The position numbers and the translations under genes were made by a program. Under the pieces are notes generated by a model. It was not told the DNA's origin and did not search any database. It worked only from the letters and a program-made list of their open reading frames with translations. DNA of 64,000 bases from Lachnospiraceae bacterium (GTDB lineage: Bacteria > Bacillota > Clostridia > Lachnospirales > Lachnospiraceae), in NCBI GenBank assembly GCA_021202075.1, contig JAJQDT010000096.1, positions 134,297 to 198,296 on the forward strand, given 5' to 3'. This document shows, piece by piece, positions 56,784 through 61,275 of the stretch. Every line of letters begins with the position of its first letter. The first letter of the stretch is position 1.

Positions 56784-57206
56784 ATGGACTACAAAACATA
56801 CATATGGAATAAAGTACATAGTCTCTACTATCAATATGACATGAACTGCGCCCGGACAACCCTAACCTGTTTGTCCGAGCTATACAGCTTCCCGGTCAGC
56901 CCCGATGTCTTCGATGCCGCCCTGGGCATGCACGGAGCCGGCGGCTATGGAGCGCAGTGTGGTCTTATTGAAGGCGCACTGATGTTCATCGGCCTGTATT
57001 TTTCAGCGTCGAATATGAGCGAAAAGCAGGTCGCGTCTGTGTGTTATCAGTTCGCCAGAGAATTTGAAAAACGATTCGGTTCCTTGCGCTGCCGGGAGCT
57101 TCGCCCGGGCGGGTTTTCCAAAAACGATCCGCCGCACCTGTGTGAAACCATCACCTGCCAGGCAATTGAGTTTGCTTATCTTTTCATACAGGACGCGGAA
57201 CCGTGA
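56784..57206 (+). CDS. C_GCAxxG_C_C family protein, 140 aa
   Basis: Small redox-type protein family common in anaerobes. The Cys pattern includes MNCARTTL, GAQCGLIEGA, LRCRELRP and ETITCQA; the spacing fits C_GCAxxG_C_C, with CGLIEG in place of GCAxxG. Probably binds a metal cluster or forms redox disulfides; function unproven. Opposite in direction to the sirtuin operon. Confidence 0.85.
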   Translation: MDYKTYIWNKVHSLYYQYDMNCARTTLTCLSELYSFPVSPDVFDAALGMHGAGGYGAQCGLIEGALMFIGLYFSASNMSEKQVASVCYQFAREFEKRFGSLRCRELRPGGFSKNDPPHLCETITCQAIEFAYLFIQDAEP

Positions 57207-57508: not shown

Positions 57509-58012
57509 CTATGGCCGCCTGTGTGCGCAGGTGTATTTCACGTCCAGCCCGTCAGGCCCTAAACGAAACCGATCCAGGGCATCCGCATCCTTGAAAATCT
57601 GGTACAGGAGAATTTCCCTGCCGGTCACGTCCTCTTTCATTGCGTCTTTTCCTGACTCGTCGTCCCGGTCATGCCATGCCATAATATCATAGCTCCACGG
57701 ATGGTATTCGAGGCTATTTTCCGCACAATAAGACTGATAATAGTCTGCCGCACGCTGTCCATGCCCGACGTCCTGCCAGTCGTCCTGCCGCCTGGAATCA
57801 TGGAAAACGGCGGCATGGCAGAGGACTTCCTTTTCTTTATCCGATACGACGATTTTATCGGCAATCAGTAGGGCGTACAGCAGCACCCGGCTGCAATGTT
57901 CTCTGGTGTGGAGGACACTGACATTCATCCAGAACTCTACTTTATTTTCAAGAAAATTACACCACCTGTTATAATCTGCCGCTACTGAGGCAACCGCATC
58001 TATTCTTCGCAT
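57509..58012 (-). CDS. HD-domain phosphohydrolase, 167 aa
   Basis: Metal-binding HD pattern: H in VLHTREHCSR, HD in AAVFHDSRRQDD, and a later D in KDADALDRFRLG. Members hydrolyse nucleotides or phosphate esters; the substrate is unknown. The start lies 13 bp inside the upstream sirtuin gene, so it is the last gene of that operon. No RelA/SpoT or cyclic-nucleotide domain is fused. Confidence 0.85.
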   Translation of the reverse strand: MRRIDAVASVAADYNRWCNFLENKVEFWMNVSVLHTREHCSRVLLYALLIADKIVVSDKEKEVLCHAAVFHDSRRQDDWQDVGHGQRAADYYQSYCAENSLEYHPWSYDIMAWHDRDDESGKDAMKEDVTGREILLYQIFKDADALDRFRLGPDGLDVKYTCAHRRP

Positions 58013-58836
58013 ACGTTTCTCAACTCTCCCAAAATGTCGCTGAGATACCCATCCAGGCCATAGGACTTATCCTGAATATCCCTGGTGATGTAAACCTCGC
58101 CAAGATTGATGGTGATATAGGTCGCATTCGGTTCACTGGCAGTCAGCCTCATCAGCGGAGCCTTGATCAGCTGATTTCTCGCGCCAATGCCAAGTTCCAG
58201 GATAACAATATTCCTGCCATGATATTTAGCGAGGAAATCCTCGAATCGCTTTTGTTCTTTTCGGTTCGGGATAAAACTGTGGTCTCCCACATCGTGAATC
58301 TGCATGGGTGCGCCGCATTTTGGACAATGCGGAACCATTTCAGAAGGGATTTTTCCGTTCTGTTCAACAGCAGCCATCTGCTCCAGCAATTCCGCAGCCG
58401 GATAGATTGTATCATGGCAAGGTCTGGAACACTGCATGGTCAGCCAGTTCCCCTCGATTTCATAGATTTTCTCCGGGTCGAGGCCGCATTTCTCAAAGTG
58501 GCATTCGCCATTGGATGTGACGATAAAATAGTCTCTGTCTCCAATAATCGCCTGTAAATCCTTCATAACCTGGGTAGGCTGATATTCCGCGCAGTAATGA
58601 TGTGCTGCCCGGCTCCAGAAGCCCCACTTTTCTTCCTCGCTGGGCCAGCGGGCAGTCATTCCATGCAACAGGCAGCGCAGTCCATATTTTCGTTTCAGGT
58701 CGCCAAACAGTTCCTCAAATGCCTCATTATCTGCAAATAGATGCAACCCCTCTGTAATAGACAGCCCGTTGCTGGCGCCAACCAGAATCGCATCCGCATT
58801 TTTCAGTTTTTTGATCATTGTTTCGTTCATAGTCAT
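58000..58836 (-). CDS. SirTM-like sirtuin 2 of two, 278 aa
   Basis: NAD-binding Rossmann fold with GASNGLSITEG (residues 20-30), TSNGE in place of TQNID, and EIEGNW where classic sirtuins have the catalytic HG, so the His is missing, as in SirTM (class M) sirtuins that act as ADP-ribosyltransferases. Two Cys pairs (QCSRPC, HCPKCGAPM) form the zinc site. GAGGAGG precedes the ATG. No macrodomain or lipoate-carrier gene is next to it, unlike the described SirTM operons. Confidence 0.85.
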   Translation of the reverse strand: MTMNETMIKKLKNADAILVGASNGLSITEGLHLFADNEAFEELFGDLKRKYGLRCLLHGMTARWPSEEEKWGFWSRAAHHYCAEYQPTQVMKDLQAIIGDRDYFIVTSNGECHFEKCGLDPEKIYEIEGNWLTMQCSRPCHDTIYPAAELLEQMAAVEQNGKIPSEMVPHCPKCGAPMQIHDVGDHSFIPNRKEQKRFEDFLAKYHGRNIVILELGIGARNQLIKAPLMRLTASEPNATYITINLGEVYITRDIQDKSYGLDGYLSDILGELRNVCEE

Positions 58837-58877
58837 GTCCTTTTCCTCCTCACTGTTTCAGAAAATTCCTGTTGTCG

Positions 58878-59486
58878 TCAGGCTTCCGTCAATCTCCTCA
58901 GAAGATAGTCTCCCACAGTCACAGCATCCTCTATCGTCAGATAATGCCCGATGCTCCGGTCTGCCAGAAGGCGCGCAGAAGGGGGGAATTCCTCGTCCGC
59001 GAACCAAATGTTGATAGTCAGCGGGACACGCGGCAGATACGGGACGCGCACACTAAGATCTGCTTTGCCCGAAATGATTTCTCCTCCCATTTCCCTCAGA
59101 ATATTACCGATTTCTGTCTCCGAATGGCCGGCCGCAAACTTTTCGATTGCGGCAGAAGCTGTACGGTCAAAATTCGCACCACGCACCAGACCATCTGGCA
59201 TATCTCCAAGAGCACACAGTTCTCCTGACAGTTCCATCCCATCGGCAAGGTTCATATAGTGAAGCATCGTCAGATAATGCCATTGATCTGTTTCTTCCAG
59301 AAGCGCATAATCTGGATAAGTGAGCGTGTACATTTTTCCGAGACTGGACAGCCGAAAACAGTTCGATCCAGCATCGTATGTAACTCCCGCATCTTGCGCA
59401 ATGCCTGCCGGGTTCTTTCCGGCAAGCATTTCTATAGCATCCCGCTTCATATTCAGAAAGGCCCTGTTTTCATCATCCTTAATCAT
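58878..59486 (-). CDS. DUF3786-domain protein, 202 aa
   Basis: Matches the DUF3786 pattern, with VPYLPRVPLTINIWFADEEF and ARLLADRSIGHYLTIEDAV as the conserved C-terminal block. The function is unknown; DUF3786 proteins in clostridia often sit near corrinoid or redox genes, which are not seen here. The ATG at 59486 follows GGAGG. It lies between the two sirtuin genes, an arrangement I do not recognise. Confidence 0.8.
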   Translation of the reverse strand: MIKDDENRAFLNMKRDAIEMLAGKNPAGIAQDAGVTYDAGSNCFRLSSLGKMYTLTYPDYALLEETDQWHYLTMLHYMNLADGMELSGELCALGDMPDGLVRGANFDRTASAAIEKFAAGHSETEIGNILREMGGEIISGKADLSVRVPYLPRVPLTINIWFADEEFPPSARLLADRSIGHYLTIEDAVTVGDYLLRRLTEA

Positions 59487-59503
59487 AAAACGCATTCCTC
59501 CAT

Positions 59504-60475
59504 TCACGCCTGTCCCTTTTCTCTCAGAACATCTTCCAGCACAGTAGAGATGTTTCCTACAATGGCCATGCCCTTATCCTCGATATTCTTTGGAACAAAA
59601 TCATACTTGTCGTTGACCGCAATATACCGGGCATCCGGCAGAGTTTTTGTCAATTCCCAGAATGGCTCCTGGATAAACATCGGTGTTATCCGTCCCACAC
59701 CAAACTCAAGGAAGAGAGTCTTCTTGTCCTGATGCGCCTGAATATAGCGGGAGATTTTCTGATACTCGCCGTCATATTTCCTCCCCTGAAGAAAATTGCC
59801 GTAGCCGCGAACCCAGGGAAACGCCTCCGCGCCGCAGTGGGGACAATGCGGAACCATATCCGTTGGAATTGTCGTCCCATCCCCCATAGCTTCTATCATT
59901 TCTTCCACCGGCTTCACTGCATCCCAGGTGTCATCCGTACAGCAGCGGGAACACTGGAAATAGCGGTGATCACCTTGGATTTCCGCCACCTTATCCTCCG
60001 GAAATGCCTTGATTGCCTGCGTGTCCTGATTGGTGGTGAGAATGAAATAATCTTTTCCTTCCAGAAGTGTGCGTAAGTCCAGATAGGGCTTGCGTATCGG
60101 TGCAGTCAGCGTCGTATGCAGGAAAGTCGCAAGATACGCCCACTTATCCTCTGGCCTGTCATAGCGGTAAAAGGTGCCGTCAAAAGCGCGGCGAAACCCA
60201 TATCTCTCTGCAAACTTCCCAAAATTCGCATAGAAAGAAGCTGTAGGCTCATAGTAAAAATCCCCGCCGTCGGCCGCCGACAGCCCGGAAGCAGCACCCA
60301 CTACGATACAATCCGCTTTGTCCACTTCCTCCGCAAACAGGCAAATCTGCTTTTCATAAGGAAGAGACTCCTTTTCCGTCAATACAACAGCAGTTCCGCC
60401 CCGCTGATAGAGTCCATAATGGCGCGAATAATTCATCGTCTGCGTTTTCATAACAAGATTTTCATAGCAGCTCAT
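59504..60475 (-). CDS. SirTM-like sirtuin 1 of two, 323 aa
   Basis: Contains GAASGLSAADGGDF (NAD loop), TTNQDTQAIKAFPEDK and AEIQGDHRYFQC, where QG replaces the catalytic HG, as in SirTM. Zinc Cys pairs are CSRCC and HCPHCGAEAF. The protein carries about 45 extra N-terminal residues compared with sirtuin 2. It is the first gene of the operon sirtuin 1 - DUF3786 - sirtuin 2 - HD. Overlap with the DUF3786 region is nil after start correction. The substrate is unknown. Confidence 0.85.
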   Translation of the reverse strand: MSCYENLVMKTQTMNYSRHYGLYQRGGTAVVLTEKESLPYEKQICLFAEEVDKADCIVVGAASGLSAADGGDFYYEPTASFYANFGKFAERYGFRRAFDGTFYRYDRPEDKWAYLATFLHTTLTAPIRKPYLDLRTLLEGKDYFILTTNQDTQAIKAFPEDKVAEIQGDHRYFQCSRCCTDDTWDAVKPVEEMIEAMGDGTTIPTDMVPHCPHCGAEAFPWVRGYGNFLQGRKYDGEYQKISRYIQAHQDKKTLFLEFGVGRITPMFIQEPFWELTKTLPDARYIAVNDKYDFVPKNIEDKGMAIVGNISTVLEDVLREKGQA

Positions 60476-60560: not shown

Positions 60561-60594
60561 GACCTTCGTCCATACTCGCACAGCGAGTACGGAC
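60561..60594 (-). repeat. Compound palindrome, member I
   Basis: On the minus strand GTCCGTACTCGC-TGT-GCGAGTATGGAC then GAAGGTC, nearly identical to member A but in inverted orientation. It lies in the TetR leader. Confidence 0.85.
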
Positions 60595-60666: not shown

Positions 60667-61275
60667 ATGAAGGGTGACAGGAAGAGAGATCGGAGAACGC
60701 GATATACGATTAAGGCAATCAAAGATGCGTTTCTTTCTCTGGAAAAAGAAATGGCCTATGATGAGATCAGTGTAAAAAAACTGTGTGAACGTGCGGAAAT
60801 ATCGAGGGCGACATTTTACCTCCACTACGATGAGCTGGGCGAAGTACTGGATGAGGTTCTTGACGATGCGCTTCTTTTTTCGGAGGAGTCAAACGAGAAT
60901 ACCCTTGATCTGATCGATGTGATTCAGTCCGATAAGATACCGGATGTCCGTGAAAATGAGGCGGTGCTGCCAGCCTGCCAGAGAATTGCTGATTCCCATA
61001 AATACCACGACCTGTTCATTGATGCTTCACTTGGAGAATACATCATTATGCGTATTTCAAATCATGAACATGACCGGGTCATTCCTGATCTGATGGGGCG
61101 AACCGGTCTCAGTGAAGAATATGCAGAGCTGCTTTTCCGCTTCATGCTTCACGGTTCTTTCTATGTAAATAAGCTGCTAAAATGGGAGAAAAATGATACC
61201 TGGTATGATTTTCAGAAACTGCTGAGCGCATTTCTGGATGCCGGAATCAATGAAGTTTCTAAAAAACGGGAATAA
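60667..61275 (+). CDS. TetR-family regulator (Firmicutes C-terminal type), 202 aa
   Basis: HTH at residues 10-55 (RYTIKAIKDAFLSLEKEM, ERAEISRATFYLHYDEL) and a C-terminal domain of the Firmicutes TetR type (FRFMLHGSFYVNKLLKWEK). AAAGGAG precedes the ATG. Divergent from the sirtuin operon, so probably its regulator; the inverted repeat over the promoter supports autoregulation. Confidence 0.9.
   Translation: MKGDRKRDRRTRYTIKAIKDAFLSLEKEMAYDEISVKKLCERAEISRATFYLHYDELGEVLDEVLDDALLFSEESNENTLDLIDVIQSDKIPDVRENEAVLPACQRIADSHKYHDLFIDASLGEYIIMRISNHEHDRVIPDLMGRTGLSEEYAELLFRFMLHGSFYVNKLLKWEKNDTWYDFQKLLSAFLDAGINEVSKKRE

Follow-up and report, generated by a model that had tools for sequence, protein, structure and literature searches.

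Paired Gln- and Glu-type SirTM-like sirtuins and clustered salvage genes point to an uncharacterised NAD-consuming protein-modification system

The window analyzed here, a 64,000-nucleotide stretch of contig JAJQDT010000096.1 from a Lachnospiraceae bacterium (assembly GCA_021202075.1), carries on its minus strand an operon encoding two SirTM-like sirtuins, hereafter SirB and SirA, in which glutamine and glutamate, respectively, occupy the position of the catalytic histidine. In the loci that we surveyed, the pairing of sirB with sirA is obligate, or nearly so, and does without a macrodomain gene; in a minority of loci gene context ties the pair to the salvage of nicotinamide adenine dinucleotide (NAD). 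Together, the paired sirtuins and the salvage genes point to an uncharacterised NAD-consuming protein-modification system. The SirB-SirA pair is probably ADP-ribosylating, and on balance we lean slightly toward a two-sirtuin, NAD+-consuming, ADP-ribosylating module with the partner roles proposed below. The two sirtuin genes are located as follows:

59504..60475, minus strand: sirB, Gln-type (QG) SirTM-like sirtuin, 323 amino acids (open reading frame, 5a3a match, residues, tree)
58000..58836, minus strand: sirA, Glu-type (EG) SirTM-like sirtuin, 278 amino acids

Two SirTM-like sirtuins with different active sites

Both proteins found their best PDB match in 5a3a, the SirTM of Streptococcus pyogenes (SpySirTM), with E-values of 7.2e-41 for SirB and 8.2e-40 for SirA, and neither reached the Pfam SIR2 model (E 0.043 for SirB; no match up to E 1 for SirA). 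An earlier note made from the sequence of the window had placed the two sirtuins with SirTM rather than with deacylases and had reported that both lack the catalytic histidine. The 5a3a matches and the tree described below agree with this placement, kinship with SirTM above other sirtuins being seen in sequence for both proteins and in fold comparison on the SirA model only. The missing histidine is likewise borne out, with IQG in SirB and IEG in SirA, each protein also having a CxxxC and a CxxC motif; the two are 30% identical to each other.

In the SpySirTM study, mutation of Asn118, Gln137 or Arg192 dramatically decreases activity, and replacement of Gln137 by His abolishes it (PMC4518038). 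We took the equivalent residues from the 5a3a alignments, reading the chain numbering as offset by 10. SirB retains all three (Asn149, Gln167 and Arg223), whereas SirA retains Asn109 but has Glu128 in place of Gln and Val183 in place of Arg. For a survey of SirA, the best 80 of 247 confirmed relatives were kept and, with the window, make up 81 loci; loci with short flanks were dropped from each neighbor or pairing count. Asn109, Glu111, Glu126 and Glu128 are each found in 81/81 loci, and column 183 holds Arg in none of the 81 (gaps in 7). Because these four residues are kept and the column is devoid of Arg throughout, the substitutions in SirA are not decay. Among the 68 SirB proteins longer than 250 amino acids, those of 250 or less being excluded from the residue counts, Asn149 and Gln167 are invariant and Arg223 occurs in 65, with Lys in the other 3.

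A joint alignment of 72 proteins extends this contrast. Its catalytic column is Glu in 22/22 SirA proteins and Gln in 14/14 SirB, 2/2 Bx, 9/9 SirC (a third, Gln-type copy) and 21/21 members of a macrodomain-linked branch, with His in the CobB of the genome. Four plasmid-borne pairs from Bacillales and Lactobacillales have Glu in 4/4 SirA and Gln in 4/4 SirB; some zinc cysteines are missing from the two Lactobacillales pairs. In the maximum-likelihood tree of 72 rows, SirA forms one clade (support 99/100), as do SirC (99/96), SirB with Bx (98/93) and the macrodomain-linked branch of 21 rows (99/95), while the join between SirB and SirC is weak (88/51); the labels A, B, Bx and C are ours and were assigned from profile scores. 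In the fourth branch, 20 of the 21 rows contain a macrodomain or adjoin a macrodomain gene, the exception being L070, without a macrodomain match; Pfam Macro was confirmed in the two proteins checked.

With respect to class M, to which SirTM belongs, SirB has QG for HG and SirA, with its Glu, does not. The class M loop GVGx[NT]TP reads GVGRITP in the SirB of the window, and across SirB it departs at one position, [NT] being M, L or I in 68/68 proteins and TP being kept in 68/68. In SirA the whole loop is rebuilt as a GIGxRNQLIK type, with Asn221, Leu223 and Lys225 in 81/81 loci and Gln222 in 78/81. Since SirA departs from class M in QG, loop and macrodomain, and SirB in loop and macrodomain, neither is a class M sirtuin in the strict sense; judged by sequence, both are SirTM-like proteins of a variant outside strict class M. 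On two Lactiplantibacillus plasmids (L208:4983-6314 and L209:4968-6287), a SirA with a C-terminal extension adjoins sirB and a TetR gene; the extension is cupin-like in the former (Pfam E 2.9e-4, below the cut-off) and annotated as cupin in the latter.

Pairing and distribution

sirB lies on the strand of sirA, with its center within 2.3 kb, in 69 of the 70 loci whose sequence upstream of sirA spans 1.2 kb or more. At the single exception, L157, sirC stands beside sirA in place of sirB, and a macrodomain-SirTM pair is located nearby. A draw of 299 genomes from the family of the window gave a similar picture: with SirA counted at E 3.2e-73 or less (at least 41% identity) and SirB at E 1e-60 or less, SirA is present in 19 genomes, SirB in 20 and both in 18 (Fisher p 1e-25, uncorrected for relatedness). 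In the one genome with only sirA (G281), sirB is split over two open reading frames; of the two with only sirB, one (G159) has a contig that stops 129 bases past sirB and the other (G169) a 209-residue sirB remnant and no sirA. A partial SirTM match across two open reading frames of G262 (41% over 183 residues), whose scores with the A, B and C profiles were close to one another (198, 169 and 177 bits), was rejected as SirA and not counted.

The distribution of SirA is broad but patchy. Relatives were recorded in Lachnospiraceae, Oscillospiraceae, Acidaminococcus, Desulfovibrio and Eggerthellaceae; the one genome listed from the same genus had no SirA. Matches of any kind were found in 36 plasmid records: each of the 15 rows at 37% identity or more matches at two places in its record, and the 21 rows at 33.3% or less match at a single place, except for one (30.6%) that matches at two. 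sirB adjoins sirA in all four of the higher-identity records that we inspected. One scan of viral contigs, aimed at a phage origin, returned 45 stretches fitting a pattern, none of which was confirmed as a relative.

Of the 54 loci with 3 kb of sequence on either side, 1 has a macrodomain gene no more than 4.5 kb away, as judged by a profile of four SirTM-linked macrodomain sequences that could miss other types, and the operon of the window has no macrodomain gene. The statement of the earlier note that neither the macrodomain nor the lipoylated-carrier partner of SirTM is present here holds for the operon but not for the genome, where the search that it recommended found both macrodomain genes and GcvH. 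Further SirTM-like matches lie on contigs C38, C124, C14 and C25; those on C38 and C14 are preceded by a macrodomain gene, which places at least two such genes beside other SirTMs, and that on C124 is preceded by a macrodomain fragment. GcvH occurs once, within a glycine-cleavage cluster with lplA. Because macrodomain genes adjoin other SirTMs of this genome, the known SirTM-macrodomain pair and the new pair coexist in it.

Following the SirTM genes on C124 and C25 of this genome (G000; L064 and L066) is a gene resembling what we take to be DUF1848, and macrodomain, SirTM and DUF1848 are annotated consecutively on a Roseburia plasmid. At G000:C75:82979-84991 (L200, 2980-4992), the gene of a macrodomain protein adjoins that of a DraG-like ADP-ribosylglycohydrolase. 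Three tandem sirtuins of ordinary SIR2 type at G000:C100:3202-6460 (L067), of 240-249 amino acids, also have Gln (QG) at the catalytic position, and a TIGR02452 gene, presumably PARG-like, comes after them; trio and neighbor are possibly a second, different ADP-ribosylation system.

Clusters with NAD salvage genes

In five assemblies from Clostridia, Eggerthellaceae and Bacillales (L084, L150, L162, L206 and L207), sirB, sirA and a gene for an HD-domain protein are clustered with genes for a nicotinate phosphoribosyltransferase (NAPRT) and a nicotinamidase-like protein of the isochorismatase family. The order is HD, isochorismatase, NAPRT in L084 and isochorismatase, NAPRT, HD in L150, while in L162 HD is fused to isochorismatase and followed by NAPRT. 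Plasmids of Mesobacillus foraminis and Paenibacillus sp. 37 are annotated in the order sirB, sirA, HD, NAPRT and then isochorismatase, with one small gene between the last two in M. foraminis. The isochorismatase-family protein of L150 matches PDB 1ilw, named pyrazinamidase/nicotinamidase (E 2.7e-13). Nicotinamide is the leaving group in known sirtuin reactions, which makes these clusters the best evidence that SirB-SirA consumes NAD+. The presence of HD in the same clusters favors placing it in NAD metabolism. The new element is that NAD salvage is coupled with these sirtuins within a single cluster.

Other genes of the operon and its relatives

The remaining features of the locus are the following:

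58878..59507, minus strand: DUF3786 protein, 209 amino acids as listed (PF12654, E 3.4e-37; 128.1 bits against a cut-off of 27)
57509..58012, minus strand: HD-domain metallohydrolase-like protein, 167 amino acids, overlapping the end of sirA (alignment of relatives)
60667..61275, plus strand: divergent TetR-family regulator, 202 amino acids (TetR_N and DhaS models, both below cut-off)
60568..60594, no strand assigned: 12-nucleotide inverted repeat, 92% complementary with a 3-nucleotide gap, candidate operator in the interval separating tetR from sirB

Open reading frames and domain searches agree with the layout first noted, in which the sirtuin genes flank DUF3786, an HD gene overlaps the end and a TetR gene diverges, giving the order sirB, DUF3786, sirA, HD on the minus strand. 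The listed start of DUF3786 is a GTG at 59507 that overlaps sirB; the ATG at 59486, better positioned behind a ribosome-binding site, is the likelier start. The TetR protein matches Pfam TetR_N (E 0.0012) and NCBIfam DhaS (E 1.9e-7) below the cut-offs of both models, and is 64% identical over 199 amino acids to the divergent regulator beside sirB-sirA in L051. Its candidate operator is assigned from the position of the repeat. A C_GCAxxG_C_C gene is also present in the window (56784-57206), convergent to the operon.

The synteny test that the earlier note recommended came out in favor of its observation: the gene set recurs at other loci, with sirB plus sirA as its core and HD and DUF3786 as recurrent but optional members. 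HD is the next gene after sirA in 13 of 78 loci, including the window, and 10 of these 13 genes overlap sirA by 1 or 10 bases (sirA stop codon excluded). DUF3786 is found no more than 4.5 kb away in 17 of 54 loci and between sirB and sirA in 4 of 54. Among the 299 family genomes, the HD search returned one strong match, that of the window, besides which two genomes gave three weak matches in open frames of 381-541 amino acids; the other 18 sirA genomes of the draw are thus without a strong HD match.

The metal-ligand residues of HD (H35, H71-D72, H84, H114 and D142) are invariant in 9/9 aligned relatives including the window. Scores against Pfam HD all fall below the cut-off of 22 bits, at 13.2 for the window (E 0.11), 18.7 for L150 and 19 for L206 (relatives, E 0.0023 and 0.0017). 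A profile search against the PDB gave two weak matches (E 0.045 and 0.3), both to phosphodiesterases or phosphohydrolases of the HD type, from which we drew no substrate. Since 8/8 aligned relatives run about 20-50 residues beyond the LDVKY after which the HD protein of the window soon stops, its 3' end looks truncated or frame-shifted. HD had been proposed as an enzyme of reversal or as a hydrolase of an NAD product; the salvage genes of the five assemblies favor the link to an NAD product, and for reversal the position of the gene is the only evidence.

DUF3786 has a confident predicted structure (predicted local distance difference test, pLDDT, 93.5) for which Foldseek found no PDB match at E 0.001 or less. 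A corrinoid adenosyltransferase identity, hinted at by weak sequence matches (E 0.01) that disappeared in a profile search, was not used. The DUF3786 name appears in one paper of the open-access literature searched. A second DUF3786 copy of the genome (G000:C77:82731-83288) is near RnfC-like and MetF-like genes.

Other recurrent neighbors are sirC (17/54 loci), TetR (15/54), a divergent Rrf2-family regulator (41/68) and a CooC-like ATPase (12/54; our name for what Pfam calls a CbiA/MinD-type ATPase). The one Rrf2 protein scored had HypR on top among specific NCBIfam models, at 46 bits against a cut-off of 180. Redox-type neighbors of some loci include FrdA/FrdB, CGGC, TIGR04076 and C_GCAxxG_C_C proteins and what we take to be a hydroxylamine-reductase-like gene. 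Open reading frames were picked greedily, and some neighbor clusters are antisense artefacts, marked as such. In L056-L058, a C_GCAxxG_C_C redox gene lies between sirA and sirB, with a C-terminal SirC-like fragment upstream of sirA.

A proposed module and its rivals

From the class, active-site residues, clade, pairing and recurrent neighbors described above, we infer a scheme of NAD+ cleavage, ADP-ribosylation, possible heteromer formation and partner roles. SirB and SirA would form an obligate module that cleaves NAD+, most likely putting ADP-ribose on protein and releasing nicotinamide. SirB, whose class M residues Asn149, Gln167 and Arg223 are intact, would be the catalytic transferase, and SirA, which retains the NAD-pocket residues Asn109 and Asn244, would be a working partner rather than a relic, either as heteromer partner or as second-step enzyme on the same ADP-ribose. 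Where co-clustered, the nicotinamidase-like protein and NAPRT would return nicotinamide to NAD. The substrate of HD may be a pathway product that is phosphorylated or derived from ADP-ribose, DUF3786 could be an accessory or a substrate, and the operon would be under the control of its divergent regulator, of the TetR or Rrf2 family. That SirA represents a new enzymatic type of the sirtuin superfamily, a Glu-base sirtuin removing, moving or further processing ADP-ribose from its Gln-type partner, is a tentative idea that we hold to be rather doubtful; in that case the writer and the enzyme acting after it would each be a sirtuin, and some of the gene clusters would add an HD hydrolase of their own and the recycling of nicotinamide.

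Several observations weigh against the module. SirA may be catalytically dead, because mutation of Gln137 or Arg192 dramatically lowers the activity of SpySirTM (PMC4518038). NAPRT within 5.5 kb of sirA is a minority trait (5/81 loci, L148 and L150 among them belonging to a single assembly), and in L121, whose contig ends 2.2 kb downstream, NAPRT is accompanied neither by HD nor by a nicotinamidase-like gene. The L150 amidohydrolase scores far below the NCBIfam cut-offs, with biuret amidohydrolase first and nicotinamidase second, and the window has no open reading frame of the NAPRT or nicotinamidase-like kind. Only 19 of 299 family genomes carry SirA, and 398 genomes of the phylum held no clear SirA beyond that of the window: three genomes reached E 1e-70 or less, that of the window and two with scores like those of the ordinary SirTMs in the window genome. 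Branch lengths of sirA and sirB correlate weakly (r 0.35 for 66 pairs, against at most 0.30 in permutations), too weakly for us to use this mirror-tree correlation as a sign of physical contact. Finally, the precedent for paralogue-dependent NAD processing, human FAM118A and FAM118B, two paralogous sirtuins both of which were required for strong in vitro NAD processing (PMC12700824), is a functional analogy only: these vertebrate proteins belong to the SIR2_2 subfamily, have an active-site His and form filaments.

We consider it unlikely that SirA is an eraser, a sirtuin fold using Glu128 as base to strip the ADP-ribose of SirB in lieu of a macrodomain. The near one-to-one pairing, the Glu at 81/81 catalytic positions and the loss from SirA of the Arg partner of the class M Gln would all agree with such a role, as would the contrast between one macrodomain neighbor in 54 loci here and 20 in 21 rows of the other SirTM branch. 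However, the NAD-pocket Asn residues of SirA suggest NAD+, and not ADP-ribose alone, as ligand, and we know of no sirtuin fold that hydrolyzes protein ADP-ribose. Two independent ADP-ribosyltransferases with different targets, the reading of the earlier note, seem comparably improbable. Both proteins are indeed SirTM-like, and sirC, in 17 of 54 loci, indicates that multiplication of transferases occurs. Yet separate targets do not require that sirA and sirB be seldom apart, and a pair that cooperates would account for the near-obligate linkage no less well. SirA moreover lacks two residues critical for SpySirTM activity, and the absence of these Gln137 and Arg192 equivalents makes the transferase label unsafe for it.

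A NAD-depleting defense system or toxin comparable to antiphage Sir2 proteins would account for the sirtuin fold, the patchy distribution and the occurrence on plasmids, but no PADLOC model matched the four operon proteins up to E 1, the proteins fall in the SirTM branch and not in SIR2_2, the viral-contig scan confirmed no relative, and the salvage genes of some clusters would restore NAD; we regard this reading as very improbable. Least credible of all is that these are ordinary deacylases, as annotation pipelines name them: in each of the four plasmid records inspected, at least one of the two sirtuins is called "Sir2 family NAD-dependent protein deacetylase" or similar. The proposed module would correct this annotation on plasmids of Bacilli.

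Comparison with known systems

The SirTM of class M from S. pyogenes and S. aureus (5a3a) resembles SirB and SirA in fold (on the SirA model), zinc cysteines and the Asn118 equivalent, and resembles SirB only in the Gln137 and Arg192 equivalents. The SirB-SirA module differs from it in having no macrodomain, GcvH-L or LplA2 and an adjoining Glu-type paralogue (69/70 loci), as well as in the loop, where [NT] becomes M, L or I in SirB and which is wholly rebuilt in SirA. GcvH-L was the only known target of class M sirtuins as of 2024, according to a paper of that year (PMC11490716). The sirtuin half of Mfs1, a fungal macrodomain-SirTM fusion (8rsn), is the second-best structural match of SirA, whereas the partner in our module is a second sirtuin and not a macrodomain. 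PncA/PncB nicotinamide salvage finds its counterpart in five assemblies, where a nicotinamidase-like gene and NAPRT join the sirB-sirA-HD cluster; both are missing from the operon of the window.

Our searches of the open-access literature, which excluded subscription papers and preprints, turned up no account of a Glu-type class M sirtuin or of such a pair among the listings and passages covered. Two features defined class M, a Gln replacing the catalytic His and a partner macrodomain, and the SirA clade departs from it on both counts: it is taxonomically broad and patchy, has Glu in every copy examined, has a Gln-type sirtuin as partner in place of the macrodomain, and in some clusters is accompanied by nicotinamide salvage. 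What a Glu sirtuin does, and whether its paralogue is needed, thereby become testable questions.

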